Shown here in pieces: positions 11,112 to 48,884 of a DNA stretch of 64,000 bases (position 1 is its first letter; each line of letters starts with the position of its first letter). The notes under the pieces were generated by a model. That model did no database searches and was not told where the DNA came from. It saw nothing but the letters and a program-made list of their open reading frames with translations. The translations under genes were made by a program, and so were the position numbers. Source of the DNA: Dromaius novaehollandiae (taxonomy: Eukaryota > Chordata > Aves > Casuariiformes > Dromaiidae); the NCBI RefSeq assembly GCF_036370855.1, contig NC_088101.1:70782559-70846558 (forward strand), given 5' to 3'.

Positions 11112-12317
11112 CTGAAATATAAAATATTTTAAATTAAGGCCAAAAAAGACTGTAAGAAAATTGAAAAGTATTTATATTAACAAGCTTAAAACCATGTATA
11201 ATAAAAACAGGGTCTTAAAAAGGAAAAATACTTCTTACTAGTTATATACTTCATATTTTAGAGAATAATATACTTATGTTTAAGTGATACAGCAGTATCA
11301 GAAAAGATAATCAAGTGTTTGTAGTTGCAAAATATGCAAAAAACCCCAAAAGATTAGGTGGAGAGTGGATCAAAGTGAATACACTGAATAAGTGAACTGG
11401 AAAGGTTGACCCTGATCAACCTAAGGTCCATGGGTTACCTGCATGAGAAAGCGAGCACAACTGAAAATTTTAAAGATAATGGCTTTTTAACAGTTATGGA
11501 CTATGTGATCTGAAGGGAAGGAATGTATTGTGTTTATTCATTTATCACTCATTCCTAGAAGCTTATCAATTAAGTGTTGAAAAAACGAGCAAAAAAACAG
11601 CAGCCAAATGTGAAAAATATCAGATTCTTTCACACTACAGTTATTAAATCAAAAAGTGGAAAAAGTGAATGGAAGAAAAGTAACGCAAGTCAGAAACCCA
11701 ACTCTAAGTTGAATAGAACATAAACTCTATGTACCAAACATATGCAAAAAATGAATTACTTGCTCTTAGGCAATGATAAGAAAATGTGAAGTTGTCAAAC
11801 CCGCCATTATCGTTCGCTGTCAGTTCAAATAAATATTTTTTCTTAAATATTTATCTCTGTATTAGGAATAGAGGATAAAAATGCAAGTTTGGGGGAGGAA
11901 AAACATGTGAATTAAATTCTCTTGCTAGAATTGACATCATACTTGCAATGGTGGAGAAGGAGGGATTTACCTTTCACTGGCAGATGTTACAGTTCTGTGA
12001 TTTTTTCTTCTGCTCACAGACCTAGCTTCTGCTGCTACTTTTCGCTGTCCTAGGTATAAGCAAAAGTCAGTTTTTATATCATGGAACTATTTCTTTTGTT
12101 AAAACAGTTTTGCATCTTAAAACTTTATTGAAGAAATATTATTTTGTTCTGATGTTTCATTTAAACACACAATATGTAGTCACCATATCAGATAGAATTT
12201 TTTAAACAGAAAGAAAAATACCCACAATCTACTTGTATTCACATAAAATGAACACCTCTACATTACTGTAAATTACTTGAAATTGTCTTGAAAACCTGTA
12301 GCCAGAGGGGTTTTTCT

Positions 12318-12354
<37 letters not shown>

Positions 12355-15300
12355 GTGGTGTTGGGAGTGGCTAACAGCACATTATAAAAAACTTAATTAT
12401 TTATATATAATTTTGCATAAGAAATCACATTTAAGCTGAATTTCTTCATTAACATCTATACAAGTGTAGTGACACTTAACTAAACAACAGTTAAGTCATT
12501 TTGTAATCACATACTGTCTGTGTATTTTTATGCATTTTAGTCAGTGTAGGTTAATCTGGATATTAAGCATATCTACAGGCCTCCACTATAAACTAAGAAA
12601 GAAAAGTAGTGCTTTGGGGATTGAATCTTTATTCATCTCCAAGTGCCTACACACCCTTACTCTCAATATATTTGTGAGAAAGAAACCATTTGGTCTGTCT
12701 CAAATTTTTAAAAAACACTTCTCATTTACAGTTTGAAGCTGTATGTCTCATATCAGAATTCATCCTGCAGTAAATACCAGGGCAATACTTACAAAGTATC
12801 AAAGACAGCCAACAGGGCCTTGCAAGCCACACTTCCAGCCTTTAAAGCAACTGGGAAAAGCTGCTTTATTCCACATAGGTTAAAGATCCATGCTTCCTAA
12901 GAGAAGTATCCTCTGTGTGCATTTAGCACATCATTTTAAATATCTGAATCCAGATAGATTCCTTGCCACAGAGAATTTGTAAAGTACATTTTAAATTTCA
13001 TACAACTTCACTGCAATTATTCTACAACTGGCTCCCATGTTTTTAAGAGAATTCATGACAGCAGCAAGACTGAATGACTGTTGACATTTCACTGATGCTG
13101 AAATAACATTAAGCATATAGTGGGAGCCAGGCTCTTCTCAGTGGTGTCCAGTGACAGGATGGGAGGCAACGGGCACAAACTGGAACAGAGGAAGTTCCAT
13201 CTGAACATAAGAAACAACCTTTTTACTGTGAGGGTGACTGAGCCCCGGAACAGGTCGCCTAAAGAGGTTATGGAGTCTCCATCCTTGGAGATGCTCAAAA
13301 GCATCTTGACACAGTCCAGAGCAACCTGCTGTAGGTGACCCTGCTTGAGCAGAGGGGTTGGACTAAATCTCTGGAGGTCCCTTCCAACCTCAACCATTCT
13401 GTGATTTATACTGCTCCAAAAGCTTCCACAAGAGAGACTATCTTTTAACAAATTAAATTTTAAAAAACTACAACATAGGATGAAGACTGAATTATTTTTA
13501 TGTGCATAGGTTTACAAAAACTAATAACTAATTCCTTTATTAAAAACAACTAGTATTACAGACAGAAAAGGCTAGGGCATACCTCTGCCAGCTTTGTTTC
13601 TGGTAGATTTCGATTTTGCAGTTGCTTTACTTTTAAATTCATTAACTGGAGTATGATCAGCTTCTTCATTATTTTCTGTTAATCACAGTAGTGCACAAAG
13701 AAATCATAGATGATCAACTTTTACTTTACCCAAAATACTGGTACTTAAAACTTTTGCTGTTATATAAAAAGCCATACAATCTCAAACCCACTTTTTCTGT
13801 AAATTAGATAAAGCTAGAAGGAAGCTTAAAATGTGATTCTAGCTATATCCCTACCCCAACATAGATAGATAAAATCTAAACTATCCTTTAGCCTCCTCTG
13901 AAAAATTCCAAGAATTCTAGGAAGTTTCTTTCTTGCACAATCTATGTTACTCCTAGAAAGCTTTTTTCCTAACACCTGATCTAGATCTCCTGTGCTGCAA
14001 CTGAAGGACAAAAAGTAATGGTTGTTTCCCTTTTTGCTTCACAGGTACCATATACATATTTGAAGAAGTAAACGTTCCTCTGCTTTCAGTGATCCCAAAT
14101 GTATGGGCAGCAGGGGAGGGAGAACATCATTTTTCTCCTACAGGATGCAAGGACGGTCTGCTTAAAAAGAGTGCTCAAAATTTCTTCTTCATTAGAAATT
14201 CAGACCAAAAAGTACTATTAGCTGTTAGCAGAAAACAGTTAAACTAGAAATAGGAAGTTGCGTTTTTGCATAAGCATGTCTCCAGTTCCCTATCCAATAA
14301 ATATTCAAACATATAAATATAGAAGATATACATAATTAAAATATTAGATACTTCCAGAAACAACACACTAAAGCTCTGAAATAATCCACTAGAAAAGAAA
14401 TAAATGCAAACAAAATAGTAGTCTTTGCTTAAGACAGTTGCATATCAAGATCTTTGCTTTAAGTAAGCCTAATCAAGTTTCATCTCATTGCTTTTCTACC
14501 AAAAACATTAGACTTCCTACGCCACCAACACAAAGTACGCTGCCAAGGCGTTTGAAACTGCGTAAGTTGTGCAGAAGGTGGACAGTCTTCCAGCTTCTTC
14601 CACTTCAAGCTCTTGAATAGCAATAAAAATAAATAGATAAGAACAATTCTGCCTCCAACAAATGAACTAGCAACAGGGAAAGGCACCAGTATCACACCCC
14701 AGACACTACAGATATCAACTACGTACTGCTATAATGGAACACAGTCTGCACGAAGCAGGCATAGCAACTTTGAGGTCCAAGAAAACACAAAGTACTTGAT
14801 TCTTTCTCTGAAATAGTAACTCACATTCTAAAAGGGAGTTTACAATCACTAGTATTTAGCAGACAGATGAATGCACCAAACTGCTACAGAAAGCCCACTT
14901 TAATATTGCCTTTGTTAAAAAGGAAGAATTGCAGGGGAGACCAAGTCTCAAAATACAACACTGGCTGTACTAGAGTATTATAGAAAATGAGATAACAGAG
15001 AAACTGATCAAAAACCAATAGAAAATGGAAGATACATCAGTATGAATATTTTAAAAAGCATGTATATTTAACAAATACTACCTTTTTCCCTTGTTTTCAA
15101 AAAGTAGATTCATTTAATAGAGAAAAACAAGACTTTTTTTTCACATAGATGTGCACAAGTCACCCACTTGTATATCTCCTACTAAATAACAGTTCTGCTG
15201 AATTACCTTCTTCATTTTGACTATTATTTTCAGTTAATGCAATGTCAGTTTCCTGTGTCCTTTCAGAGAAGCCCGTTTCCTCTGTCTTTTCAGAGTGGTC

Positions 15301-18300
15301 TTTGCCCATATTAGCATCTTTGCTTAAGTTTATCTTGATCTTCTCAATAGCTCTTTGGCACAATTTGTCTTTCACTTTCTGGGGAAGAGACATTTAAATG
15401 TTAAACATTGCTTATTTTTATAACTATTTCTGTTATCTATTAAGTTATTAATTGTATCATTCTTAGGGTAAATTTAGCTAATTCTGTGTGTCACATGAAG
15501 ATGATTACTCAGAATGAAAGGAGAAGCACTCTCTCCATCAACATCAGGCACTGAAACTCCCCCAAAAATTGTGAGAGACATGAAGAAACATTAAAAATAA
15601 AGTGACTGAACCTTTCCAGGCGAGTGCTGGAACATTCCTATTTCTAGATGATATGCTCAGAGTGGACTGGAATTCCTCTTGACATTACTACATGGCACTG
15701 TCTTCATCTGTCCCACTTCCAAATTTTACCGTAACCTCCATATTAATAAAAGCAGCAACAATGTAAAACTTTCCATCAGTCTTGTAATCCCTTCCCAGTT
15801 CATCTCAAACAAAGCATTTTTTTCCTGTTGCCCAATGATCTTAAAGGTAAGTTTAGGCGTAAACATTTTGGCTGTTAATTATCAACGAAAGATAAGCCAT
15901 CCAGGCTGTAAAGGCCTTAATATTGAATGTAAAAAAATAAACTACACCACAGCTATCAAAACAACCTATTGTATTCAATCGTATCAAGTTGCACACACTG
16001 TTTCAAGCTATTTTTATTATCTGTGATAGCTGAAATATTTAAATTATACAATGAACTCAGCTCAGATTTTTGTAAATACCTCATCAAAAATGAATTTTCA
16101 ATAAAGACTTGCTAACAGAGATATTCTGGTCATATTATCACAGTAAACAAAAGGCACGTTGGTTTTTAGCATATCAGAATATTAGACTGCTAGTGATTAA
16201 AATAGTAGCAGCCATGTTATTTATGTACTACCTCTAGAATCTCATCCAGCAGAAGCAGAAGATTCTCTGTGGAACAATTACTGAGTTCTAATGAATTTAA
16301 AGCTCTTGCATAAATACGAACATCTGGTGCAGTTGGGTCCATCAAAATTTCATTGCAAATTTTCATTGCCAAACTATCATGCACTGTTAAGTCCTATAAA
16401 GGAAAGAAATCAGATATTTCTGAAATTTAGTTGGAAGTTATTTACAAAAGACAACAAGATCATTCTGATTTAAGCAGCTAATGAATAATTTTACACAGTA
16501 AATACTTTCTTAATATGCAGTATTTTGAGTACATGTACTATCTGATCTTTATACTTTCCCCATTAAAGATAATTAGGGCTGGTGCAAGTTCCTACTAGCA
16601 TTATGTAACTACAACAGGGAATGGAAGTAGGGAGAGAAAAATTACAGTGAAAGATTTTGTTCCCTGTACTGTCACTTGCTTAGTCCATGGACACATGCAG
16701 GCTATGTGAGGGGCCCAGACAACCAGCTGGTGGTAAGTGAAGGGGGTCAATTCTTAATCTCTAGACACAAACCAAGTGCCTTCCTCCACTTCAACCCATT
16801 GCTATATACCTGATACTCTTGGGACTTTTTGGCCTGAGGTTTGAGTCCACTTGGTCTGCTCAGGTCCACTAACAGTTCAGAAACATTACTGGTATCTATT
16901 TCAGCCAAAGGTGAAGTGGCAGGAGCATTTAACAATGTTCGCAGAGTTGGAAGATAAGCTTCCTCAAAGCATTCCTGGTTAGACCTGTTTCAATTAAGTC
17001 ACAGATTAGTAGCATAATGAGACAAAATTAAAGTTTAATTCACCCCTAAATTTTTTCTTCTACAATGAAATTTCACAGACCCATTACAATACATTTAAGC
17101 TACCAATCAAAGCAGAGTGAACAGCCAACCTTATCAAAGACAGCCAGCAGGATCAAGATATCATCAAGACTGCATCATAAAACCGACTTCCTTCAGCTTT
17201 AGCTCATGGCCATTTCAAGCAAGTTTTAAGTAACGCTTCCTACCTCAGAACAGCTTGAAAGTTCATTCTTACTACTGGAAAAATCTAACTAATATATATA
17301 GGCAAGGGACAGAAACACACTTTCATACATCTATTTTTCTCCTGCTCATTCCTTCTTTCTGCTAGTATCTTTCTTCAGGGATACTTCTTCCTATGTAAGA
17401 AAGTAAGGAAGCCTGGCAAAAAAAACTGTGGCAGCTAACAAGACTTTGGAAAAAATACTTGTGCTTTCTTTTCTTCAAAAAGTTAAATACTCCTGCCAAG
17501 CAAGCCTAAAAATCATGTTGCACTTAAAAGATTCTGCAGCAAGTTATGTAAAGGTGTAGTTCCACAAGATGGGTCAAAACAATTTAACAGGTAACTACTG
17601 GCAAAAGAACAAGGTTTCACTTTACCAAATAGTACCTTGTACTGACTTTGGCACTTATTAGCCTGTTTGAACCAATTTAACTACAGGAGAAGACTAATAA
17701 AGTAAAAAAGAATTAAGAGGAAAAAAAACACACAGATACTGCTGGGTAGATGAGCCGAATCAGCTGACTGAAAGACCTTTTGAGCACTATGACTGGGGCA
17801 AGAAAGAGCAGAAGCAAGAGCTCTCCCTTTCTGCAGGTTTAAGCAGAATTTAAGCATATTCAGATTTCCTGCAAATTAAAAAAAAATCCAATAGCATATA
17901 GGCGCAAGGCAGATTAAGTTTTAGGTTTTAGGCCCCTGAGGTTGTCTGAGAGATTACTACTCAAAAAAAAAAAAAAAAAAAAAAAGAAACAAAAAAACCA
18001 CACACAACCAAAAAACACACAAAAACACAAAACCAACTATGAATAAGAATTGACCACTGGTTATAGCATCCTGTCCCTGTTATTGATGTGCCATGCCATT
18101 CTATTGGCATGACAAAATACCAAATATAGAAGTCAGCATCAACATTTGTTTCTCATACGAAGTTCAAATGTTTCATTTCAAAAAGTAACCCTCTTAACTA
18201 TAACTATGATCAGCCATAGAGTTTAACAGAGCAATACCCAGAAAACATAAACCGAATCAGTAAGGTTGGTGAGAAGTTCATACCAAAATCAGACATCAAC

Positions 18301-21300
18301 CTCAACAGAAACTGATTACCCAAATTTTCCTTTTCTAAATGGCAACTTTGCAGACAGCTCTGAATCAGCTGCCATACAAAGTAATAATTCTCTTTCGAAA
18401 ATACATTATTGGTAACTGAAGATACTCTGTGATGCATCTTACTGTGAACTATTTGTGATCCAAAATGCAGATAATGTTCAAGACTGAAGACTAACGAGGT
18501 TTCTTAACTAAACAACGATTCTGAATTAGTCAGCCAGACTAAGATTTAGGATTTTTTCCCCCTATTGATATTTCCACTTTTTTTCTTAAAGCATACTGTG
18601 CTTTCCTTTTCAAGTAAAAGGACAGAAGATTTTCTGTGAGGTGCCAGAAGAAATTGCTCCTCTTGCAAATGACTTTGAAATACGCAGAATTACTCTAGGG
18701 AGTCTTGGTAAAAGCTTAAGGTCATTATTGAATATCAGAGAGGCTGGAAGCATATTAAATTAGGTTTTCGCCTAATTTTCAACAGAATTTAAATAGGGAA
18801 GAAAACACTCTGGAAGAGACCTGTTTTTTTTCCTATTGCTTCTTTGACAACAGCAAAGACATTTTTCAGACTAACTCCCCTTTGAACTACTACTCTTGCT
18901 GTGGCAGTTTATAGGCCGTAAAAATTAAAAAAGAAATTATTTTGAAAAATAGATAAGGGATCACATAATATTCTTAAGTTAAAACTTAGCCATAAAAAGC
19001 AGAAAACGAACAGCAAGTTCAAATTGGCCAACACCACTAGCAGCAGCTCAAAGATAAGTCAAACTTTTTTTAAGCAAGCGAAAGGAGAATTGCTATTTAC
19101 ACTGCTGCCTGCTTACATAAATCCTCTACTTCCTCTGTCCACTCCCAAAACAAACAGGAGAATTTGAATCTGATATGAATTTAGTTTGGAGTATTCTTTG
19201 GTTTTAAAGAAGAACAGCCTAACTGCTTCTTTTATTTCTGCTTGGCACTATTTCCTTTTGAAGCATTACTGCTAGCTCCTCTTCAGGGAGGCTTCCAAGT
19301 TTAGCTGTAGTGCTCAATAGCGTAAGTAAAGCCTATCTTTTAAATTTGTTTTTAATACCTCGAGGAAAAGTTTCAATCATAGGTGTAAGAGAGAAGAAAA
19401 ATGGAGTGCCACAAAGGTAAAACAGTATTGGGCAATTTTCAGAATATTCATAGGTTGAGTTTATGCACATTCAGAAGTAATATGCACAGGAGACTGAATT
19501 AGACCTTTAAATCTAAATGGATGAATCTGAAGATCAAAGAGGGTTAAGAGCTAAATAAATGGCTAGGAGCTTAATAAAGGACATGGGAATTGTAGCTGCT
19601 GAACCCCAGGGAATAAGCCGAATGACTATTAGTCAAGTCTTCAGGTTTGGTACCCTCAAGTTCAAAAATCCCAGACTTTCTTTTGTTACTGTCCTGCAAT
19701 AAAACCATTTCCACTTTGTATATGACTGAAAAAGGTTCCTAAAGCTGCCAGTCCAGTGTATGTCTTTACATAACATTTTACAGAGTCCATACCTATTTGC
19801 ATAAGCAAATAAAGGGAAGAAAACTCCCAGACAATGTCTAAGCCGAGTATCCTCTTCAGTGACAGGATTATACCACAACAAAACAAGACGAGAAAGAAGC
19901 TTGGCACTAATTAGCCTCCCAGAGAACATCAATTTGGCTATGCCTTCTGCAGCTTCTGTCCGAAGTTCTGAAAACTAGAAAGAAGAGTTGATCATATATA
20001 CAACAAACACCACATTTTTCACTAATACATTGTAATAGTCTACATCCTATTTTGCCAGTCACCTCTGTACATTTACATATTTGCACCTGCACAGATTTCA
20101 AAGCTGACCTAAGAATAACGTTGGTCTTTATCAGTGACAAAGTTGTGGTAATTTTCTAGGGCAGTTATTTTAACATTAGTTCATTCATCTCACTTACGCA
20201 TCCTTTAATGTTTAATTGCAACGTGATCCAACAGAAAACCTTAAAGAAAAGAAAAAGTATTTCTTACCTCACTGTCTAAGAAACCAGAAAGAAGCTGTAG
20301 CAGACTGTGAATCGTAGCAGTCTCTTCTTCCTCTATTGTTCTAGTTTCTTCCTCGCAATTTTCAGTTGTAATCTGTACATCTTCACTTGGAGACTCATTG
20401 CTTCTTCTGGTTTTGAATGGTTCAATCCCAAACAACATTAGCTGATCAAAGATTGCTTTTAAAGCACTTAGCTTAACCTTGATATCATCTATTTGTAAAA
20501 CCTAGGTTTAATAAGGAAAATACAGGCAGAAGGTATTATGTAAATTTAAAGAAGCACTCTTACATTCCTAATTTCCTTGTCTTGGTAACATTTTATATAA
20601 AAAAAAAAAAAAGAGAGAAAGTTAACTTCTGATGGTGGCAGTTCCTTCATCCATCTGCCTATGCTGCTGTACAAGGGAAGTAGAAAGTGGAGTGGGTGGT
20701 TAAGTATGTGTGCACGCATGTGTGGAAGAGATGTAGTCTTATTGTGTTAACTTCTAAAGAGACATAATAGCACAAACAGGAAAAAAAAAATTGTTTGATT
20801 ACAGTAACTCCATAATGCTAAGCACTACACAAAAAACATGGTAAGACACCTGCTCTGAAATACTGTATTGCTTACTTAGAGAACAGTATGCAGAAAGACA
20901 AGATGGTATAATAAATGCAATGGTGCATATGTTACTATATATATATTTCAAATTAACATTCAAATAAAGCCAGACATAGTGGGTTAGTCTAGGGATCTAT
21001 TTAGCCCCACATCCTGTTTTAGCAGTGGCCAACACAAAGAATATGGGTTTGGGTATCCACAGAACCTAATTGCTTAAGTCTCACTGTTTCCTAAAACATC
21101 AGTCCTTCCTAAGCAAACAGACTGGCTTTTAACAAGATATACTCATTATGCAAATTAGAAACAATACTGCTTGCTAACTTCCTAGGAACCAGAAGTTCTG
21201 CCACTTTGGTGACTGAAGGCTTTATCATCTTGTCTGAGCCAAGTATGCCATCTCAATACCTTTTCCAAATCTCACCCTTTCTGGAAGTCAGTTACACACC

Positions 21301-24300
21301 TGCTGTCCCTTGTGTATCAGTTCTCTTGAGCACCTCAACCAGTGTCCCATATACACACGCACATACACAAGCTCTTAAAGCATGGTGACCACATACACTT
21401 CCCTCAAAGCCAGGGTTAGAGAAGTTAATGATAATGCCATCTTTTATATAATTAGCTCAGCATCAGAACATTTACCACAAAGATGGGAGATTATGCCATC
21501 ATCAGTTTGATGTGAGCCCAGCCAACATCTTCCATATCTCTGGACAGCAACCTAACTACTGAAAGTTGGCTAATCCAGGAAATAATTTTTTCTGCTCATC
21601 CTTCAGCAATTGGGCCCTAGCATAACCAGAAATGCAATATTCAGGAGACAACACTGTAAATATGAAACCCATCGTATAGGGACATGAACTCTGGGGAGAA
21701 AAAGAGTGCTTATCTCAGAAAATTAAAAAAAAAAAGTTTTAAATCCACTAACAGATGTTTGACCATACTATACTATACTATCAGCGAGATTTCTTTTGCT
21801 GGTTTGGATACTGCCTTATCCTCCAATTAAACAATTGGTAACTACTTCATACAGAATTAATAATGCAGAAATTAACTCATACACTCAGATTGCAGGTAAG
21901 TATGTAACAGAAATGGAGTGGGGGGAAAAAGTCACTACTTTTAGTTTGGTTTCCCAAGAAAGCAAGGCTTACAGAATCCTACAGCCTCTCTTTTCTACAT
22001 GGCAATAACTTAAGTGTTTGACTGACTTCAGTCAAATCTGAAAAGGGAAAAGAGATCTTAAGGATAGAGTTCCTACAAACTTTCAAGAAAACACGTGATC
22101 TTACATAAGGAAAGGCATGCTACTACCAGGATGCAGTATAAGCTTGATTAATAGACATCAGAAAAAACCTACATGAGATTACACCCTCCAGAACTAGATC
22201 TACAGGATACAAGGCATCATTGGTTCTCAGGTAACGTAACTATATAAGATAACTTACTATAGATACAAAACTAGTTTTATTTGCTAGGTAACAGGGACCA
22301 CCATTCCATTTCTCTGTCGTTTTTACCTGTAACAGCAATGCAAGGTGTTGTCGGGCAAATTCTTTGGTCTGAAGGGCACAGCAACCCAAACACAGAACTG
22401 CCATGTTTCTCACAGCCGGATGGACATTAGTTATTCCAGGCAGTATCTGAAAACAATTTTAGACTTTACAGTTGAAATACATAAGTTTAAAATATTGACT
22501 ATACTGTGTAAATGTGCTTACCCTGAAACTAAAAATAATTTAGTTAGATATGGGATTGTACCGTGGCAACTACTGCATACTCTGCTTATCTAGATATAAA
22601 ACAGAAACAGATTTTGAGTATCTTGATTAAAATTAGCAATAAAATAATGGCCAAATCGCATGAGTGTATTGCCCTGCATTTGTTTTTAATATTTAAACTC
22701 AGAACATTTGTTTTCAAACAGAATTGAGCTGAACATTCATTGTGAACTAAAAAACAAACCTACATATTTCTTCATAAAAATATTATCATTCTTGCAAATA
22801 AACAATATCCAGTTCCAAGTTGCAAAATACAGAAGCAACTTAACTCTCATGTACTTGGAATAGTTTTGAGAAGACAATGGTACAAATGCACACAAAAGAA
22901 GAGCCAGGCTAGAGAGAGGATGAATGCTATGCCAAGATCACATTATACTTGAACTCTCTAGTGAATGTGAAAGTTAAACAAATAAAATGACCCAAAACAT
23001 ATTATAAGTGAAAATCCAGCAGGAACAAGAATGTGGAAAGAGGATGTTGGAGAAAGAAAAAGGGGGAGATGACAACAAAGGTAAAAAATAAAGAAACACC
23101 CAATTAAATAGAGGTTTTGGGGGGATATATCAATACTAATTATGATTTCTTAGAATAGCATTCAGAAAGAAATCAGGAGTGGTTCCACAATATTTAAGGA
23201 AGTCAAGTCGGTTTTGCAATTTCTTTCCAGTTTGAATTCAAAGAATGTGCATACGGAGTCAAATCATCTAGCTCATTGTCCTGTTATCAACAGAGGTCAA
23301 AACTAAATTCTTTCAGAGTATTACATAAACAGATCAAGTTTATACTTCCCAGCAATTCTTGCTGATGTCCCAACAATTTGCAGCTGAGACACATCAGAGA
23401 TGGGAGTTTGCTCCTACCTACCCAATTACTCCACGAGATTTATTCTTCTTGAACTTGTTCAGTCTTCTATAAAATTTGTGCAAATATCCTGTGGCAAGGA
23501 AGTCCACATATTACATATTTTGTGAAGAATCACCTCATATTATTTGCTTTGAGCTTGCCACTTGCTGTCTTCATTGGATGTCTCTAATACTTATAGAACA
23601 CCATGATCAGCCAATCCTTATTCACTTTCTCTAAGCCACTCATGTCTCAAATGACAAGTGTTTTGTAGATCTCTATCATATCCTAAAGTCCTCTTCTCCA
23701 GGTTACAAAGAGATAGCCCATTTACTTCATCTAGAAGCTGTTCCATACCTTTACGATCCTTGCTGCCCTTCTCTAAACCACTTCCAGTTTTAACATATTC
23801 TTTCTAGATAGATGGGATAAGAATTGCACACGCTATTCAGATGTGGGTGCACCATGCATTCATACAGTGGCACACTGCTTTTTTCCATTTTGTTCTCTGT
23901 TACCTACCCAGGAGAGAGTTTAAATTGTCTTGAAGCAGCACAGTCAGTGACAGTTAAGAGCCTGTGATACTTAGAAACATTCATCTTGAAATTCCATGCT
24001 CTTCAGTACTAAAACTGAGAAGTATAGTTAGTAGACGATAAGAGGCCTACATTGTCACTGCCTTGATTTTGCAATCCAGAAACCATTTTAGTCTTCAAGA
24101 GAGAGAAAAAAACACTGTACAACAAAGCACCTTTGCTTGTACTAAAAAGAGATGAAAGAAAGGTCTTCATGAGCTCCAGTCTCTTCCAGATGAAGAGTTT
24201 TTGGTTAGCTCTAAAAACAAAACAAAAACACATTGAAAAAAAAAAAACCAACTTGAAATAGATCTAATAGCTTCAGCTAAAAGAAAATCCAAGTAATAAA

Positions 24301-27300
24301 AGTACCAGAAAGGGCAGTGAGCAGATACCCAACCATTGCATTTAGCGCAGTGCAACTCAGCACTGTCAAACATTGTCATACATTAGTCAAACATTTACAT
24401 TCCAGTATTATTTTGGTATCTCTCTGCAGCAGTTCTGGGATAGGTTCTGAGCTCAGGATAATGTATCGACTGCATGTCCAAGCCACTAGGTTCTGGGAAA
24501 GCTTAAAAGTTCCATGGCAGCACCACAGATACAGCAAAATGGTTCTGAAATAATCACAAACTGCCCTACCAGCAGCTCAGCACCAGCTATGCTATACCCA
24601 TCTTTATTATAAGTAAAATAGTGTTTACTACTACATACCAGAGATTCAATTATTTCATTCATGGTTGGACCAATTCCTTTAGAAAGGGACATCACCTTGA
24701 GAAGCTCATAACACATCATCAGACACTTCAACAGTGTTTCAGGATCATTCTTCAAGGAGGATCAGGGAAAAGAGAAAGAGGTCATTATTACAATTCCCTG
24801 CCCAAATAAACCTACTAAAATATATTATCTGTCCACTACGCATTTGCTATGAAAGAATGTTAAACAAAATCCACTCATAAGCAATTGATGAAAAGAGATT
24901 CAAATTCATCTTCCCAGTTAGTTAAGGTTAAAAGCAGTAAGGGTAAAACCTTTTTGTAATTCCTTAGGTATTCAAGGACAAAAGCATGGTATAACTGCAA
25001 TGCATTTTTGCTAGAGCACAGCAACACCTTCTACACACACGGAAGGAAAACACTAACAACATAAATGTCCATTTTCAACTTTAAAAATGTAGATGATATG
25101 AAGCCAAATTACACTTTCTTTTAAAACAATGAATAAACATCAAACCACAACAAGCACTTGCCAATAGAGAAAGGGAAAAAAAGAGACCTTCTCAACACGC
25201 ATTTCTTTAATTTCAGGTTGCTCTCCTTCTTTTATCAGGTCATTTTTTATGTGTTCCAACTCAGTTATTTTCTCCTTTAATATTGATGCTTGATTAAAAT
25301 CCTGCAGAGTAATGCATTCTTCCAAAGCTTCTTTTGCTTCAAAAATTTTCACTTTAATTTCAGCCAACTAAAATATAAAATACAAAGAAAATGAAAATTG
25401 CAACATTATAACCTACTTAGTATTAGCTAACAATACAATATTGACACTAGACAATAATATACCACTATAAAAAACTCTTATTTGCTAGATATGTTTAAGA
25501 AACAGGATGACAGCTATTTTTCTTCAATTAACTAAAATTTGCTCACCTTAAGCTGTCGCTTTCTTATTTCAGCAACATCAACAGGCTGGTCAACAGTAAC
25601 AATTGGCTCACGAACTTCTGAGACAATTTCTGCAATCTATTGTTACAAACAGAAAGTTACTGCCATTAATTTCAGTTTAAAATGTCAGATCTTAAACACT
25701 ATTTAACTTTTTCAGGTTTAAAATACCATCTTTCTGAAGCACTGAACATCTGTGCAGTTTTCCTCAACATTCAAGTCACTGCAATAAATCCTCAAAGAAT
25801 AAGACCACTACTTGAAAGTACACAGTTTAACTATGAAAGTCTAGTGTCTTCTATTCTTTAGCAAGGCAAGCGGGAGGAAAAAGGGAGGAAAAAGGGAGGA
25901 AAAAGGGAGGAAAAAGGGAGGAAAAAGGGAGGAAAAAGGGAGGAAAAAGGGAGGAAAAAGGGAGGAAAAAGGGAGGAAAAAGGGAGGAAAAAGGGAGGAA
26001 AAAGGGAGGAAAAAGGGAGGAAAAAGGGAGGAAAAAGGGAGGAAAAAGGGAGGAAAAAGGGAGGAAAAAGGGAGGAAAAAGGGAGGAAAAAGGGAGGAAA
26101 AAGGGAGGAAAAAGGGAGGAAAAAGGGAGGAAAAAGGGAGGAAAAAGGGAGGAAAAAGGGAGGAAAAAGGGAGGAAAAAGGGAGGAAAAAGGGAGGAAAA
26201 AGGGAGGAAAAAGGGAGGAAAAAGGGAGGAAAAAGGGAGGAAAAAGGGAGGAAAAAGGGAGGAAAAAGGGAGGAAAAAGGGAGGAAAAAGGGAGGAAAAA
26301 GGGAGGAAAAAGGGAGGAAAAAGGGAGGAAAAAGGGAGGAAAAAGGGAGGAAAAAGGGAGGAAAAAGGGAGGAAAAAGGGAGGAAAAAGGGAGGAAAAAG
26401 GGAGGAAAAAGGGAGGAAAAAGGGAGGAAAAAGGGAGGAAAAAGGGAGGAAAAAGGGAGGAAAAAGGGAGGAAAAAGGGAGGAAAAAGGGAGGAAAAAGG
26501 GAGGAAAAAGGGAGGAAAAAGGGAGGAAAAAGGGAGGAAAAAGGGAGGAAAAAGGGAGGAAAAAGGGAGGAAAAAGGGAGGAAAAAGGGAGGAAAAAGGG
26601 AGGAAAAAGGGAGGAAAAAGGGAGGAAAAAGGGAGGAAAAAGGGAGGAAAAAGGGAGGAAAAAGGGAGGAAAAAGGGAGGAAAAAGGGAGGAAAAAGGGA
26701 GGAAAAAGGGAGGAAAAAGGGAGGAAAAAGGGAGGAAAAAGGGAGGAAAAAGGGAGGAAAAAGGGAGGAAAAAGGGAGGAAAAAGGGAGGAAAAAGGGAG
26801 GAAAAAGGGAGGAAAAAGGGAGGAAAAAGGGAGGAAAAAGGGAGGAAAAAGGGAGGAAAAAGGGAGGAAAAAGGGAGGAAAAAGGGAGGAAAAAGGGAGG
26901 AAAAAGGGAGGAAAAAGGGAGGAAAAAGGGAGGAAAAAGGGAGGAAAAAGGGAGGAAAAAGGGAGGAAAAAGGGAGGAAAAAGGGAGGAAAAAGGGAGGA
27001 AAAAGGGAGGAAAAAGGGAGGAAAAAGGGAGGAAAAAGGGAGGAAAAAGGGAGGAAAAAGGGAAAAAATGACGACTGCAGATCCATGAGTAAGTTGAGCA
27101 ATTTCCATGCAGAAGTGCAACTTGTCAGTTCACAAAGTACTGCCTCCTCTAGGTCTGAACACATGCTTTAGAAAGAAAGACTGGTAAAAAGAGTACTGTC
27201 TTTCATCTTCTACTACTTAAGTCAAAATAGAACTAACAACATTGTAATTTAAAGGCCTATAAATCACCATATGTAATATAAAGAGCCATGTGACTGGTAA

Positions 27301-30300
27301 TTTAATTCCAAGCACAAACACATGCATAGAACTGGAAAAAGAACTAGGCTAAGGATTTTGTTTTCCAGTTGGTTAGGGGTTCTCTTTAAAGTCAGGCCCA
27401 TTATACTAACAAAAAAATAAATGAAATATAAGGAAAATTAAAGACAGAACGAGACAGTATAGTCTTAATCTGATTTTTCTTGTGCCAGATCACCTCATTT
27501 TAACATTAACTTCCTCTCAAGCTCTACTCAACCAACAAAACATACTGAATCAGTGTATTTTGCTAGGATTCTAATAGAAATGCACACAGTTATTATTAGC
27601 ACTGTACTACTATTACTGTACTACTATTACAGTACTATAATACTAGTGCTATACTGCTATTACCACAGCTCTTCCATTGTAATCCTGTTACAAACCCATA
27701 TCCTAGCCTTATCCACTGGATTGAGTTATCCAGAAGGGGTCTCCATCCATAAGTTTAGAATTTGCTTAAAATATTTGAGAAAAACAGTAGTCCATTTTTT
27801 AGGAGTTAAATTTTAAAAATTATACTCTACATAAGAACTCTATTAAATAAAATACTTGTCTTATAAGGGTTTCCAGTACTATTCTCAGCTAAAACGAGTT
27901 ACGAGAACTTACAAATTTGGAAATGTACATGATCCTTACTTTGAATGTTCCAGTCAAAACTATTTGAATTTAATATGGCAAAGGAGTTTGAAATGGGTTG
28001 TTAAAGTCTAGTATTTTCCTACTTTTAGGATTACATTTACAGCCAATCACTCTAAAAACAGATAGACTTCTTCAGGTAACCACAAAATGAGGCCATGCTG
28101 GTGGAAAAAAAAGGGGGGGGGGAAGGAGGAACGTAAACGCTTTTCCAGACTTAAAATATTCTAATTCTTGACATTTTTGTTACAATACTTGCAAAGACTG
28201 TGTGACACAGAAGGGGATGCGGGGCCCAGAAAACAACCAGTCTTTAGAAATACTTACAGTTTGAATCCTTCCATCATCATCTTTGATGATACTGAGTAAT
28301 CTTTCCACAAGCAGAGATATGAGGGCTGTTGAAGTGGTAGGTAGAATGAGAATCTTTTGTAAAACAGCTATCAGATGCTTCCTTCATTAAAAAGGAAAAA
28401 GAAAACAATCCATTTACTTTTTTAAGAAAATGGGAGACGCTTAAGAGCTAGTATTTTATCCACTTTGAGTTAGTCTGATGCATACCTTATAAGAGTTAAG
28501 TGCTGAATGTATTTTCTTATTTAGTAATGTTTGTCTTTTCCTGATTTTACCTGATTTCTCCTCATTGGAAAAGGCTGAAATCCCCCCCGCCCCCCCCTTT
28601 TTTTTTTTTTTTTGTAAATCAAATGCAACTATGAGACTATCAACAGGGTAGAACACCGTCATATAAATCATTTAGCTAGAAACTAAAAAACAAGGAGTAC
28701 AACTTTAATTATCCTGACAATCTAGAATTATGTGTAATGTATTACACTGAGGGTTCGAAACTATTGCCATTGAAATTTGTGCCATCATAATTTTTCTGAA
28801 AATGCCTATGATGATGTGAAGTAAAAGAGTCATCCAAATGATCTTCCTACAATTTGAACAGCCTTTTGGTACGAAGTTCCAAATTTATTCTGTCTCAATT
28901 AAAACAGTCCAATTCAGCTCAGCATCTAAAACATCTGTACCTCTTTAAGCCTTGGCACACTGGGCTTAAAGCACAAAAACCCCACAGGATATTTACTGTA
29001 AGTCAGTAAATCATCCATTTATCTCCTTTAATGTTGATATATTGAGTTCCAAAGGAACAGTCTTGTAATGTCCCAATCTCAGTAATTCTTTAGAAAAACA
29101 ACTGCGTTTGCCCTCCCCAAGCAACATTGTGTCTGCATTAAAACTTCTTTTTTCCATAAAACTAAGCAGACAGTATTTGGCACAATATTGGGAATAATTC
29201 CATTAGGGAGACACTGCCATTTTTTCAGCTAGCATAGAACTGTATTTTTTTCTGTTTGACCAGTAGAAACTCTATGCCTGTTCACATCTATGAAGTGAGT
29301 GTCATAAGATTAATAACACGGATATGATTTTTATTTTTTTTTAGTTTACCTTCCTCCCTCTTCAGTGGTATCCATGCAGCCTATAACATGAATCAGTTGC
29401 TGACCTATAAATTCTTTTGTCATCAGATTTTCAAAACAGGAAAAGTCTTCTCTTTGTTCTTCACTAAGAACTGGCATATTTTGAAGGTAACTAAATCCAA
29501 ATAGAACAAAGGTAATTACAGTCACTGTTGGAATGTCAACAAAACAAAAAACAAAACAAAAACTTTCATGTCCCACGTAGTTACCATAATTACAAACCTT
29601 TACATTCATTTTTGTGTTCTCCTTTTTCTAGACGAATAGCTCCAGAAAGTTATTTATGACAAATAAAGCACGGGTTAAAAACAATGTGCTTCTTTAAAAA
29701 AAAATCATTGTTTGAGAAAGCAAAACACTAAGAAAAGAAAATGCAAGTTATGCTTTTACGTGCACGTTTAGCTCTGTACCCCTGCATGTAGGCATCGGCC
29801 TACAAATAAATGTGTATGTGCACCATTTTTCGTGTGTGTATATTTATATATATATACACACACATATATAAAAGAGTACACATACACATATATACATACA
29901 TCTCATTAGGTTTTTTGCACATTCTGGTACTATGTATTCTACATATTGAAATATGTTATACTGCCTACAAAACACAAGGTACATGAAAATCACTGAAGTG
30001 TGCAGTAAATCATTTTAAATTATATATCTGATCAACTAAAACATCAGAGGAATAACAAAAATCTGTTGTCATATACACAAAGCCAGGTAGCCTAGAAAGC
30101 ATAATCAGCTTGCTCTATTTCTTCATTTTTCTAGAGTAATTGCTTTTTACTGAGATTTTATCCATTAGCTAGTGCACACATGCTCAGAAAAATCTGTTGT
30201 GATGCATACCCTGTATAAAATTCAAATACTTATGAGCTGTGAAAGAGATTGTTTATTTTCACCACAGCTTTGTGGTTACTTTTCAGCAACAGCTCATTAA

Positions 30301-32450
30301 ATTTAGCAAATTTTAAGAATTTCTTTAAAATTAGGAAAAATGCTTAAAAGTATCTGAAAATTACAACATAGGCAGCAGCATTTAACACTAATAATCTGCA
30401 CTAGGTAACAGTGAAGTATTGAAATAAAGTTTACAGGGCTTCATTTGCTCCTAAGGCTCAACAGCTTGTGGTTTCCTGCTCTTCCTAAATAGCAAACTCA
30501 TAGTGCAATAAATCCAGACATTGATTGTACAATTTCAAATCTTACCTGAAACAACTGGTGGAACAGCTCACCAATGAATAGTTTAATAGCTCACACTACA
30601 ACCAAGTACCAGCAAATCTAATTAATCTTACCCAGCCTCTTCCTGAGGGGGAAGATAATTGAAGGCATTTGAAATAAGATTGGATGGAAGAAAGAAAATC
30701 AGTTTTCTTAGAGAACAAATGTTTTATGGACTCTTAGATTAATTATGAATGAATAAATTTATAGCCGCCATACTGGATCCACATTTCTACATTAAAGAAG
30801 CATGGACACTTAATAAATGAAGTGTTTATGAAACGTTAGCCCATTTCACATAAAACGTGAAATGATTTGTATGAATACTACAGTACACTCTGCCCACTGA
30901 AGAAAGAAAAGAATATGCATAATTTTTAATTGGGAGCATCTATCAAAACAAAGCATTTTTCCTCCAGATCTGATTTATAATCATTTCAGGAAGCTTCACT
31001 CTACATTTCATGGCTTAACTGAGCAATATCTCAGTTAAGATTCCTCAGCAGTCTCCATTTTAATGGTGTTGCTCATAAATATGAATTCTGTTAACCCCTT
31101 AGGTTAAGATTCAAACTTTTCTGGATGAATATCCAACCGAGACAAAAAAAAAAATCACCTTTCTTCATTCTGGTAAAAGCCTGACCTCACAAAACACTCA
31201 CTGTTTTTTGCCTGGTTAAATGTTCTATAATTGTCTCATTTAGCAGCTCTACCACTGCTTTAGAACAGAAATTTTTGTGAGGCATGCCTGTCTGAACAAG
31301 GAGACAAAAGGGAGTGAACTGTCTCTTTCAAGAGCACTTTGGGACAGCAGCCCAATTTCTGTGAATTTTCACAAGTACAACAACAAAAAAGTACCATTTT
31401 CCAAAAACTCGGAAACTTTCTGCAAGTTCTTTGCCAAAGACACCACAATCTACATACTGATAGATGGACAAAGGATAGCTGTATATTACAGAACAATTAT
31501 TCTAGTATCTTAAATGGCAAAGAATTATATGCTATAGATCTACAAGTCCATCTTGCTCATAATTCACGAGAATAGAGTTTTCAAAATAATTTTCACATTA
31601 TAACTTTGTTCTTTTCAGTTTTTTTTTTAAAGTAGTAAATCCTCTCAAGCATCTCTTAAAAAAAAGTAAGGTTGAAAAGTTGAGTGTTCAAATGTTAGCA
31701 ACTGTCAGAACTAAAGCTGCCTACGCTTGTATTTCTGCATTCTAAAAGCACTGCAGCTCCCATTCATTATCAAATTACCAATTATCAGTTGAATTACAGT
31801 AATCGTGTGAATGTTCTTTATTTAACAGAATTGTAAACTATATGAACTTACCTTGCATTTACCTCACTGAAATTTAATCACTGAATAACTCTACCTATGC
31901 TATACTCCAGCAACATCCACATGCTATTACCATGTAACTAGAGCAAAGGGTAAAAACTTTAACCAGACTAGAGTGAAGGGTAAAATGTTCTTACATCCAG
32001 CACCTTTAAAATACATGCCTTTATAATACAATACCTTTATACCTTTATATAATACAATACCTTTAAAATACACACGAACAATTCTTAATCGTTCTCATTC
32101 AGTGCATTCTTAACTGCACAGTCTCCTGCTTTACTTCTGACTTTTCCAGAAGTTTCAGTATTTGTCTCTAATTCTGATATTCCTTAAAAAAAATTTGGCT
32201 TTGGAAGAAACCTAAATAGTTGAAGTAAAATATTCTCTATTTTTAATCCATTTTTGTGGTATTTAAGGAGTTTGCATTTAAATGCAATGTACCTTAACAA
32301 ATAATCTGCATATATAGCAGGTTCTGGCAACATCTGTTCTAGTAAATCTTCACCTTCTTCACCTTTTGATTTTAGGTATTCACAAAGAGATCTCCAATAT
32401 AACGCATTCTCAGCTGTTAAGTCTTCCAATGGAATCAGTTTCCTTAACCA

Positions 32451-32489
<39 letters not shown>

Positions 32490-35400
32490 GATAAATAAAA
32501 TAGTGACAAAGTCAAACACACAGAAATAGATTATTTGCTAAGACAAAAAAAAACTGTTAAAAATATCCTCCACAGAAGTACTTCAAGACTGAAAAAATAA
32601 CTTCCTCTTCATAAAGGAGCTCCTTGAGCCTCTCACTACATTGCGCTTTCCTATATTGTAAATTGAGGCTGTCTATTACCAGTTTGCAGAAAGATTCTGT
32701 TCAGACCTCCAGATCTCCTAGAGCAACCACCTATAACCAAGTACTTCAGCTCTATAAAACATTATCATAATTCCATTAAAATGCAGAAATGCAACAGCTT
32801 CTATTTATGAGTTCTGTCTCATCACCGTCAGTGGAACTTCAGCATTTATCACTTCCTTGAGTATTGTCTTACTTGCACACTATCAATAACGACATTGTTT
32901 TTCTTCTAAGTTATTCACAAAAAAAAAATCCAAAAGAGAACAGCAACTTGTAGATGAAAATTGATCTTTAGATGGTTTCCCATTAATCTGATGAGTCCTT
33001 ATTTAAAAGCCCATTTAATAAATATAAATCATAGACTTCAAAATCTAAGCATTTATCATACAAATATTGCACCACTCAAGCTGTAGTCAAAAACATCATA
33101 AAATAACAAGCCAAATCTTTTCCATAAATCAAAGAACTTAATTACAAGCTGAATAATTTCAGTCACTTCTGAAAATGTCATTAGCCTGACAGATCTATTT
33201 CTTCAAAAAATTACTTTCAATTCTCAGTTAACCCAATCCCTTATAATAAAATCCTTGTTTTGGGCAGGATCAAAGTCAGACTCAAATCCATAACTATAAA
33301 AATTCTTCCTTTGACCCTCTTAAAATATTGGCACATTTCCAGAGGCTGTAAGAAAGTTTTCTCCATTATCGTTGCTTTTTAAAAATTCAGACAGGCCCTC
33401 ATCTGTGGCTTTTGAGTGCAATGCATCTGCTAATTTAAAAACATCCATCATAAGCCACTATTGGAATGTAAGTCACATCACATTAAGTCATATCATAACA
33501 TTACACATTCCTTTCTCCAAAACAAAAAATAAATTTTTATTGATCATTTTATCAGTCACAATTTTTCATTTAAATTTATCATTTATTATCCGAGATTAGA
33601 CTGCTGCCACTGTTAATAATCATTTCACTCTTGTTTCTTCAGTTACCTCAACATTGTTTCTTTTTGCAACTTTTTGCTTCCCATAGCAATTTCCTATATT
33701 TTCCTATTTCTTGTGTGTTTTCATTGTCTTCTGCTTCTTTCCCTCTTCATTTTTGCTCTATGTATCTTAATATTGATCACACCATCTCCTCAGCTTAGGA
33801 ACTCACCTGGTCAAATTCCACCAAATATTAACACAGGGAAAGAAGCCTCAAAGATACTCAGTTCCTTCAAGCTCTGTTAACACAGGTCAGATACGCCCAC
33901 AGGAGACTGAAACACAAGTTCAGTAACTCTATTCTGATTGATCTACCAATTCTCCAAACAGTACAAGCATAACTGAACAAGCCCTAAGTTGGGCTGCCCA
34001 GCAAAAACACAGAGAGGAGCCAAACAGGACTATGAAACGTGTGAAAGAGACCAGAAGCATTACTAAAAGATGGAGGAGGAAGAGCAGGAAAAGAGCTTTT
34101 CAGTATCAAAAATTAAGAGTAGAGAAAAATCATGGTTTTGCAGGGGCAAGCCAGAGCACTGCCTTTATTGCAAACTGTAGAGACAGCACAAGGAACTAAA
34201 AGAAATTACACTGTGTTACTTCTGCTTCTCATAGAGACGCTTGTTTAGTTGATGAATTTACTCCCCTTCTTGAACTCTAAGATTGTGATTTTTGGGATGT
34301 CTTTGTAAACAAAAAGTCAAACACATTTTACATTCTTTTCTTCTTGCTTGATTTGGCACAGTGATTTTCAACTGCTGAACATAGAGCTTAAAAAAAATCC
34401 AGAACACAAAGACACAAACACCAGGGAGACATCATGCCTTATGCCACAACATCTGTCTTCTAATCACAATAGTTACCCTATAGTTATCCATTTGGATAAA
34501 GCTTCTAATTTAATAGTCTTATGATACAAAATATTCATCTTTTACACATGAAAACTGATCTGCATACCTGCTATCAAGGTTTTTACAGTTCTGAACGAAG
34601 TCACTAAGTGGAGATAACGAAAACACTGCATTTAGTACTGGGATGGCCACTTCAATGCAGTTTTCCACATCCAGTCGATGAAGGAGTTCTAAAACATCCC
34701 CCTCAGTCAACTGTAACCAGGCTTGAAGCAGTTTCTTCTTCATTACCTCCTTAACAGCATCTAATAATACAGCAGTTTAAACAGTTCAAAAATGTTAAAA
34801 AGGACAAAAAATACTAAGTTTTCAACATACAAAACAAATGATTTGTATGTCATTTTTGGAATGAAATTATATAGTAGATTTTATGTTATCTTTAAAAAAA
34901 AGAAAGAAGTTAAACAAGAACAATCCATGGAGCATTACTTTAAAAGTAAATAGTTGCTTATATTACAGTAACTGTAAGTAAATGTAGGACTTCCTAATGT
35001 TTGTGCTTGCATGGAATTTATTTGTGGTGTACACATACCTTTTGCATGTGCAACTGGAATCTTTTGAAGAGTAAACAGCTAACAATCTGTACTGTAAAGT
35101 GTCTTCCGATCACCCAAAAGGGGTCACTTAAAAAGCAAGATTGACCCACGCATCTTTTAATTCCCTCCCTCACTCAGAATCCCAAAGACAAAACCTCAAA
35201 AGGAGTAAGAGCAAAGCAAAGAAATTAGCCCGACCAAACATCTTGGGACCAAAAAAAAAAAGAAAAAAAATCTCAACATAAGAAAATGGCTTTTTTTCTT
35301 TTAATACTTCTCCATGCAGACTTACTTAAATGGCTAATCAGCTAACTGTTTTCAAATAAGCGCACCCAGATTTCTAGCTACAGAAAACTAAACAAACTGT

Positions 35401-38400
35401 TCATTCCTGAACTTGTTCCATTTACCAAATCTACAATTACAGCTGTTCAGTACAGGCACTGGCTGAACACTGGCCTATGCATTTTTTGAGGCAACACCAT
35501 TTTTTCCCACTGGGACTAGAAAAAGCCCTCCATCAAAAACCATTATAACTACAAACATCACCTTGACCCAGGAAACCCCTGAGCCACAAACTCTTGTTGA
35601 GCAAGGAAGTATTCTAGGGAAGCATTGCTATATACTTGTTCTGTTTTAGGCATTTAGGCTTTGGCCATTTCTGGAGGCAGGGTACTAGTATACAGACTTG
35701 TAGTCTGATCTGCTGCACAGAATTCTTATGTTTAACTCAATTATCTAAATAGATTGAGAAATTTCATCATGGTATTTTACACTCCCTCCTCCCCCTTGCC
35801 ACAATGAAAAAATATTTTCTGGATAACTGGAGCAAGACTTCAAGGGGAAAAGTATTTCTGGAGACATCTAGAATATATATATCATGAATACACAGAGAGA
35901 TTTAAGCAAGGAAACAAAGACTAATAGTTTGGCATAAGAAAAACAGGATACACATTGGGGAACAATTTAAGTAGGGTCTCAGGACTTTGTAGGAAACAGT
36001 ATCAAAGATAAAGGTAAACAGTAAAGTCTGCACACAGTGGCAACATTCATCTTTCCTGTTATAAATAACTCAGGACTATACCTTTCAGAATTCAAAAAGA
36101 GCTGTAATAAAAAGGCCTTGAAAAGAGCTAAATTAAGGTCCTCAGAACGAGAAAACCTCTTGAAGAAGAGGAAAGGCATGAACTAGTGGTAGAATGAAAG
36201 AGAATGAGACTGAGAACTGCCAGCTGACACTACCATTAGATGTACGGTAGAAATGTAGAACTAGGCAGAATCTGAACTGGTCTTCTAGGTGAAGATTAAT
36301 CATAAAGCCTTGCTCTGAAGCCGACATGGAAAACATTCTGAATTTTTACCTAGTAATCTTGAATGAGCAGGTTTCTCTTCTGTTCGTGTTCAAGTGCTTA
36401 TACACACAGGTTAGATTTCTCACGATTCACAACCAGTATATTTTTAAGCAAGGAAAATACTCAGTCAAATCCAACAGGGCTTAATATAGCCCTTCCAAAG
36501 TTTACAAATAATACAGTAACGCTAAGTAAAACTAGCGGCTTTTATTGTGAAATTCATGTTTGCTACCACTGCAAAAATAAGTCATGGTCTACTTAGGCAG
36601 GAATAAATTGACTCTCTCAGATGCATGTGACTTTTTTGACAACAGACATAATTATGTGTACGTTCTGAATGGCAGAATATTTTTTATATAAAAATGATAG
36701 TACGGAAGACTTCAAAAACAGAATAAAGCTGCTTCATGATGAAATGAATGAGGACCAACCAAAAATTTCTAAGATAAAAAAAATTCAAGCTAGTTAAATG
36801 AAAACCAAATCACCTGAGAAGATTTCTCTCAGAATGTACATGGGAAACATTTTCAAATAATTTTCAAAATTATATTAGTGTTAGATTTCAATTCTTCAAA
36901 ATAGTTACCATTACAAAAAAAATTGACATGAAGCATCTTTGCTTCGAAATACACAGGATTATGTAATACACTTTTCCACTTTTGTGTTAAATAACCTGTT
37001 ATCACAGGTTCTCCATACATCATCCCCACAATGTTAAAAAGTTTTATTTCTTAAACATTTTCTTTATTTAAAAAGATGATCTCTTACCTGATCTGTCATT
37101 AAGTCCTTGTTGTAACAACTTTACTCTCTGTGCTATTGACAGAGCTCTCATGTGAACTTTTTCTGCCAAAACCTTAAAAAAATTAAAGACAGTAAAATAC
37201 ATTTCTAAAAATTAGAACAATTGATTTTGCAAACTATTTGTGGCTCTAAATTCTCAGTGTTATCCATACACAGAAACTGTAAGTCAATACAAGCCTGTAA
37301 TACCTCTACCCTCAGTACTGTACCAGTAAGTTAACATGCAGATTCTTGTGCATGAAAAAAAATGTAAAATAAAATAAAGCTAGAAAATTGTCTAGAAATT
37401 TGGCTGCTCAGTTTGTTTCCATATCCTGCTGTTGCATGCAATTTTTTCTCCTTAAAAGTTCCAAGAGCCCTGAATACCAGCAATGAAACCAATGATGTAC
37501 ATTGATTAAAAGACCATGAACACAGAGATTCAGTTCAAAAACAGAAGTTAATCTAAATTAAGCAAGAACAGAAGATGGTTCTGTGCATACAAAAGACTAA
37601 ACATATTGTTTGATGAGTTGATCTTATCCTTCAATTTCTAAGCTGCTAGCACAAGAAATATACTTGGTACCATTCCTTCTTGCATAGCTTTAAATATAAA
37701 CATAAGTAATGCTGATACTTCACAGAACTGGAATAAAAAAGTTGCACGATATTTTACACTAGTACTACTGTGATCCTAGTTATTCATAATTCTCTGTTAG
37801 ACAATAACAGAGCAGAAAAACTGTTTCACAAACATCACCTAGTGTGTAGATAGAAATTAACAGATTGCATAAATTACCTTTCCTTTTACTTTCTGATCCT
37901 GATGACCTAAATTTTATCACATAAATACTTTCTCTCAAGAGAGCTCTACTGTAGAGTTCAGGGGTTTTAACTTGAAAACTGGCATTAAATGACTCTCGTG
38001 AAAATAGAAAAAGAATCTGGTAAGGGAAAATAAGTTGTTTTAACCAATCTTGTCATTTAACCAAAAAAAATTATAAAAGCATGAGGGTTTTTTTTTCCTA
38101 AATCAGTTTTTGAAATTAAGTGATATAATTTACCTCATATGCCAGCTTCCTGACAGCCTCCTTTACATCCATAGTGCGACCTACAATTTTGGGCAAAGTC
38201 CTTGCTGATGGAGCAATACATGACAGTACTGCACGCCTCACTTCAGAATTTGAATCATTTTCAAGCAATGTGTTGTAAACTGAAATTTAAAATCATAATA
38301 GTGTTTTTTAAGCGCTTGAAACAGTCACACTATAGAAAAACAGAAAATACTCAAAAAAAAATCAGATGTTACTAAAATCTCTACTTGTACGATGCTCATC

Positions 38401-41600: not shown

Positions 41601-41825
41601 GGCGGCCGCTCGGCAGCCCGGCCGCGGGGCAGAGCCGCTGTTCCCACACAAGCCCTACAGCGACCAGGCCACCCCTCGGAAAACCGCGGGGAGGGCACCC
41701 ACCGCAAGCGGGGCGAGCCTCCCGCCCGACGGCCGCGCCTCCTGCCCGAGCCGCGGGGCCGCCGCCGGAGAAGGACGCCGCCGCCGCGCGGGACCAGCAA
41801 CGGCCACGGCTCCCGCGCCCCCAGC

Positions 41826-41831
41826 TTCAAA
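41826..41831 (-). promoter_or_regulatory. NCAPG: CHR-type element TTTGAA
   Basis: On the transcript strand TTTGAA lies 226 nt upstream of the ATG, preceded by GCGCCTGG, which resembles a CDE placed a few bases before the CHR. CDE/CHR sites bind DREAM and MYB-MuvB complexes in G2/M genes. A hexamer can occur by chance, but the position fits. Confidence 0.5.
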
Positions 41832-41854
41832 CCAGGCGCGAGCGCCGCTCCCAG

Positions 41855-41864
41855 TCTCGCGAGA
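41855..41864. promoter_or_regulatory. NCAPG: TCTCGCGAGA palindrome (BANP-type motif)
   Basis: A perfect 10-bp palindrome, 255 nt upstream of the NCAPG start, inside the CpG island. This motif is known in vertebrate CpG-island promoters and is bound by BANP when unmethylated. Confidence 0.7.
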
Positions 41865-42090
41865 ACAGCGGGGGGCACCCGCGCGCTCGAGGCGCTTGGC
41901 GGGAGGGAAGGCGCTCAGGGCGGGGAAATGGCGGCGGGGAGCAGCGAATGGGTCGCGGAGCGGGCTGTCCTAAAAGCAGGCTCCGTTTTTTCCCTGCTTT
42001 GGCTGTGGAGTGCCCCAGGCGGGGGGCAGGAGCTCCGCGTTGCCGTGGGGGGAGCGCCCGGTGCTGGGCTGCCCCAGCGCACGGCAGGAA

Positions 42091-42125
42091 GGGCTGGGCT
42101 GGGCTGGGCTGAGCTGAGCTGAGCT
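42091..42125 (+). repeat. Pentamer array GGGCT x4, GAGCT x3
   Basis: Seven 5-bp units in tandem at the edge of the NCAPG CpG island. The units equal those of immunoglobulin switch repeats, but the array is very short. Confidence 0.85.
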
Positions 42126-48880: not shown

Positions 48881-48884
48881 TGCC

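Follow-up and report, generated by a model that had tools for sequence, protein, structure and literature searches.

A perfect 108-unit purine minisatellite in an NCAPG intron, probably made uniform by recent expansion or rapid homogenization

Several kinds of tandem repeats resemble the array described here. In the chicken assembly galGal4, 12310 minisatellite arrays of the 11-60 bp class, with a minimum of 50 units each, have been counted (PMC4992247). Some intronic arrays are reported to act on splicing. In UMUC3 cells, deleting VNTR6-1 from TERT intron 6 reportedly brought the full-length fraction up from about 45% to 71% (PMC11830802), and the intronic VNTR of ABCA7, which ranges from 12 to 427 or more units, is described in a review as favoring a cryptic splice site when the alleles are long (PMC8239992). 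The AAGGG repeat of RFC1 (CANVAS) is reported to form quadruplex and triplex structures in vitro, and r(AAGGG) is described in the RFC1 transcript (PMC10563062).

The array reported here lies within an intron of NCAPG, a minus-strand gene, between the exons counted 9 and 10. It consists of a perfect tract and a short edge:

25872..27063, + strand: perfect 11-bp tandem array, (GGGAGGAAAAA)108 followed by GGGA, with the purines on the + strand, the template for NCAPG
27060..27068, + strand: array edge GGGAAAAAA, which by its sequence resembles the unit without the inner GG; the purine run stops at 27068

Direct counting found 108 complete and identical copies of GGGAGGAAAAA at 25872-27059, and Tandem Repeats Finder (TRF) agreed, in line with the original prediction; the period runs on to 27063, giving an unbroken period-11 run of 1192 bp without a mismatch (108 units plus four bases, GGGA). 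TRF describes 25872-27063 as having period 11, 108.4 copies, 100% matches, 0% indels and a score of 2384. With its units arranged head to tail and a unit length within the range of about 10-60 bp, the array is by form a minisatellite. It is by far the longest tandem repeat of the window, meaning the whole 64-kb stretch of DNA that was analyzed; the runner-up among the 22 TRF rows spans 75 bp (17962-18036). A count allowing up to one mismatch found GGGAGGAAAAA 118 times in the window; 100 dinucleotide shuffles gave a mean of 2.43 and a largest value of 7. Beyond the array, the window holds one further exact copy, isolated and not part of an array, at 11893-11903. The homopurine run on the + strand is slightly longer than the perfect tract, 1197 bp (25872-27068). 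Interspersed variant units are common, though not obligatory, in minisatellites and are expected at such a length. By both the direct count and TRF, there are zero such units inside 25872-27063, and the sole deviating unit is a shortened one where the array ends on its high-coordinate side.

Six ORFs of 408-444 aa, three per strand, span the array (25837-27171) and encode 11-aa repeats. They cross it because the unit holds no stop, and they were treated as the mechanical outcome of a stop-free unit rather than as a coding repeat. The same intron also contains a short imperfect tandem stretch at 27601-27663 (TRF period 33, 1.9 copies).

Purity by itself cannot tell biology from a consensus or gap-filling error. 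The true array might be shorter, longer or more variable than it appears and have been made uniform during consensus building or gap filling. Its extreme purity would fit such an artefact, and there are reports that HiFi coverage of GA-rich DNA dropped in a human assembly (PMC9186530) and that simple repeats led to assembly gaps in a bird (PMC7757076). However, the window is without any N and the array boundaries are sharp, passing cleanly into dissimilar intron sequence on both sides, which is evidence against a filled gap; furthermore, 1.2 kb fits within a single long read. An assembly artefact is considered unlikely.

The position of the array relative to the gene is defined by the following features:

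15178..41600, - strand: range of the coding pieces attributed to NCAPG, comprising 17 peptide anchors and exon 5
28258..28383, - strand: NCAPG exon 9, followed by the donor GTAAGT; placed by structure match and splice signals, with an approximate 5' edge taken from the edge of the open frame
25637..28257, - strand: NCAPG intron, number 9 by the count of this analysis, 2621 nt; in transcript order 1194 nt, the array of 1192 nt, and 235 nt
25547..25636, - strand: NCAPG exon 10, with AACAATAG as the acceptor before it; placed by alignment of its first 16 of 30 residues and by splice signals

Nine of the 17 anchors have a database match (six to condensin subunit 3 and three to the Cnd3 domain); the other eight, and exon 5, were assigned through order, strand and splice signals. 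The intron number follows from the way the exons were counted here, with exons 1, 2, 5 and 8 set by order and splice signals without a database match. When seven joined exon peptides (350 residues) were compared with solved structures, residues 1-276 matched condensin complex subunit 3, chain 6igx_B, which we take to be a human entry, with an E value of 1.2e-118. The junction between exons 9 and 10 is gapless in this alignment, while the remainder of exon 10 and the seventh peptide piece are unaligned to 6igx_B. Three later NCAPG pieces match the Cnd3 domain (E 1.7e-50). These peptide anchors and splice signals bear out the predicted placement in an NCAPG intron, 235 nt before exon 10, and since the gene is on the minus strand, the + strand purines belong to the template.

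Elsewhere in the gene, just upstream of exon 3, 14 consecutive G continue into further purines (39947-39973), giving a C-rich pyrimidine tract in the transcript; the run may vary in length, though this is a guess. Two CpG-island-like stretches were observed, one at 41300-42120 (GC 0.74, CpG observed/expected 0.82) that contains the NCAPG start, and another at 48820-50260 (GC 0.65, CpG observed/expected 0.93); the background of the whole window is GC 0.38 and CpG observed/expected 0.28. The second stretch includes a minus-strand ORF at 49895-50197 with zero Pfam matches.

The array is probably an intronic minisatellite and candidate VNTR that began as a short purine seed and owes its uniformity to recent expansion or to a steady turnover of units. 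According to the proposed mechanism, such a seed would have grown, and units would have been added and lost by replication slippage or unequal exchange, leading to uniformity. The copy number would then differ between individuals, and the array would be spliced out along with the intron, having no selected function. Zero changes in 1192 bp place the divergence since homogenization at or below about 0.25% (95%), which at two substitution rates corresponds to a purity-based age bound of about 0.8-1.3 My.

The relation between turnover and purity was explored with a simple model in which tandem units are gained and lost while the array keeps a constant length of 108 units. With one mutation per 10 turnover events, perfection was seen at most 0.2% of the time. 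With one mutation per 100 events, it rose to 45% when blocks averaged 5 units and to 42% when they averaged 20, and was 0% when single units were gained or lost; with one per 1000 events, the values were 94%, 95% and 58%. Lowering the mutations tenfold below those giving 42-58% perfection yielded 94-99%. Under this model, a perfect 108-unit array would be common only if turnover exceeds mutation roughly 100- to 1000-fold or more. Because perfection reaches at most 0.2% at one mutation per 10 events, fast turnover or recent growth must be assumed, and either would suffice, with nothing more exotic required. The model, in needing turnover far above mutation, upholds the earlier suggestion that recent expansion or homogenization is the likely cause of the purity. 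The array is most likely an ordinary fast-turnover repeat whose main oddity is its purity.

The flanks were searched for traces of another origin. No word of at least 8 bases is common to both 200-bp flanks, hence nothing points to an insertion that duplicated its target site. The 40 bp adjoining each array edge have one 5-base word in common and no more, and within each flank the search yielded just a weak inverted pair of 17 nt and a direct pair of 12 nt. A transposon or insertion origin is unsupported by these flanks. Three tandem units of GGGAGGAAAAA gave 0 matches in a prokaryote collection and 0 in viral contigs, neither of which is built from animal genomes, and Rfam at the gathering threshold gave 0 matches in the window. 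A CR1-type end motif, looked for as a pointer to bird origin, is present as 3 single copies and 0 doublets. In a literature search matching the letters of the unit, no title among the matches listed concerns this NCAPG locus.

As pre-mRNA, the array is C/U-rich. The original prediction gave the transcript unit as UUUUUCCCUCC, which has the wrong reading direction; the unit of the sense RNA is UUUUUCCUCCC. The difference bears on protein binding. PTB sites have UCUU or CUCU cores, and UCCCUU is an hnRNP K-type site. The array pre-mRNA contains 0 UCUU, 0 UUCU and 0 CUCU, so that the predicted sink for PTB is not supported in the form proposed; the loose pattern YCUNN occurs 215 times, UCCCUU 107 times and UUUUU 108 times. 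If any protein gathered on this RNA, one of the hnRNP K/PCBP type would, judging from the motifs, fit better than PTB.

It can be imagined on this basis that the array tunes NCAPG splicing: its 108 pyrimidine units would gather poly(C)- or CU-binding proteins (hnRNP K/PCBP type, not PTB) or delay splicing, and their number would alter exon 10 inclusion or intron retention. The location 235 nt upstream of exon 10 is compatible with such a role, as are the many UCCCUU and UUUUU sites, the lack of any predicted self-structure in a 220-nt stretch of the array RNA, and the precedents of ABCA7 (PMC8239992) and TERT VNTR6-1 (PMC11830802). The latter is nevertheless an imperfect precedent, because the TERT sense RNA is the G-rich strand (PMC11830802) whereas that of the array is C/U-rich. 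The 235 nt between the array and exon 10 contain 19 AG dinucleotides, including that of the acceptor itself, and the array is therefore not the working polypyrimidine tract. Considering also that PTB cores are absent, we regard a splicing role as improbable and continue to favor a minisatellite, recently expanded or rapidly homogenized, that is probably without function.

Two unusual DNA structures, the quadruplex and the triplex, had been proposed for the purine strand, and both appear weaker than was implied. The usual G4Hunter cut-off is 1.2. The array scores 1.18, just below it; the telomere unit scores 1.5 and the RFC1 AAGGG repeat 1.8. ViennaRNA, run with its quadruplex option and RNA parameters, returned 0.0 kcal/mol and no fold for five units, and -38.7 kcal/mol for the AAGGG control. 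Thus, by neither the score nor a stable predicted fold does the array qualify as a G-quadruplex former, and the quadruplex claim is weakened to a borderline one. For the triplex, the homopurine run is present over its 1197 bp, but perfect mirror symmetry is absent; the best axis relates 9 of 11 positions, while AAGGG, AAAGG, AAAAG and GAA are all perfect mirrors. Quadruplex folding in vitro and an imperfect triplex are both possible.

A feature on which the original prediction was silent is the presence of 108 A5 tracts spaced 11 bp apart. These are phased A-tracts (tracts of 4-6 bp in phase with the helix), slightly off the helical repeat of 10.45 bp that was used. In an A-tract bend model, a crude one in which the bend angle and helical repeat are assumed values, the array has a mean end-to-end/contour ratio of 0.72 over 147 bp; 0 of 3127 windows elsewhere, taken every 20 bp, are as low, and this count is unchanged at bend angles of 6, 10, 14, 18 and 22 degrees. 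The DNA itself might then be the active element, its near-helically phased tracts forming a coiled, curved segment able to stall replication, promote its own expansion or influence local chromatin. The modelled curvature and the large number of tracts (elsewhere in the window, three phased runs of just 3-4 tracts were found) favor this idea. Triplex or quadruplex forms would be a less likely alternative to curvature, with the G4Hunter score giving some room to the quadruplex. On the other hand, invented repeats with 10- and 10.5-bp phasing are more bent than the array, with ratios of 0.65 and 0.38. Of the 462 ways to arrange 5 G and 6 A over 11 positions, 165 contain an A-run of at least 4, so the phasing needs no selection. 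The 11-bp phase also cancels against the 10.2-bp nucleosome period, where coherence is 0.02, compared to 0.20 at 10.0 and 0.48 at 10.5. With a curvature that is modelled so crudely, a mirror symmetry that is imperfect and no predicted quadruplex fold, active DNA seems quite improbable, and a fast-turnover minisatellite remains the preferred reading.

If real, the array would be a clean natural case for estimating the turnover rate of minisatellites, with an age of homogenization bounded by purity alone. Its location may also matter. For several mammals, associations of the NCAPG-LCORL locus with height, body length or weight are reported, and in chicken LCORL has been named as a body-size candidate (PMC10956266). 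A highly variable element at this locus could escape SNP arrays and short reads, and it might confound association signals or account for them; that the array varies there is a guess. The most far-reaching proposal is that this pure, recently expanded and superhelically coiled array of near-phased A-tracts in a condensin-subunit gene would adjust NCAPG output according to its length, either via exon 10 splicing during transcription or via the chromatin around it, at a livestock body-size locus. We consider this highly speculative and very improbable.

Compared with the systems described above, the array shares with vertebrate intronic minisatellites and VNTRs an 11-bp unit and a long tandem arrangement (PMC4992247), a likeness of class rather than to individual arrays, and it differs in being without unit variants over 108 copies. 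Like the ABCA7 VNTR, it is an intronic array on the scale of up to hundreds of units; however, the ABCA7 unit is about 25 nt, against 11 bp in NCAPG, and a splicing effect is reported for the ABCA7 array (PMC8239992). TERT VNTR6-1 has a 38-bp unit about 3.5 kb from exon 7, a quadruplex predicted in the sense orientation and a shown effect on splicing (PMC11830802), while the NCAPG array has an 11-bp unit 235 nt from exon 10 and a pyrimidine sense RNA. With RFC1 AAGGG it has in common that both are intronic, pure purine/pyrimidine tandem repeats, but AAGGG has mirror symmetry and G3 runs at even spacing (PMC10563062), whereas the NCAPG array mirrors at 9 of 11 positions, has a borderline quadruplex score and carries its purines on the template strand. 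Taken together, ABCA7 and TERT VNTR6-1 would be the nearest systems by action, and the RFC1 repeat is the nearest by composition.
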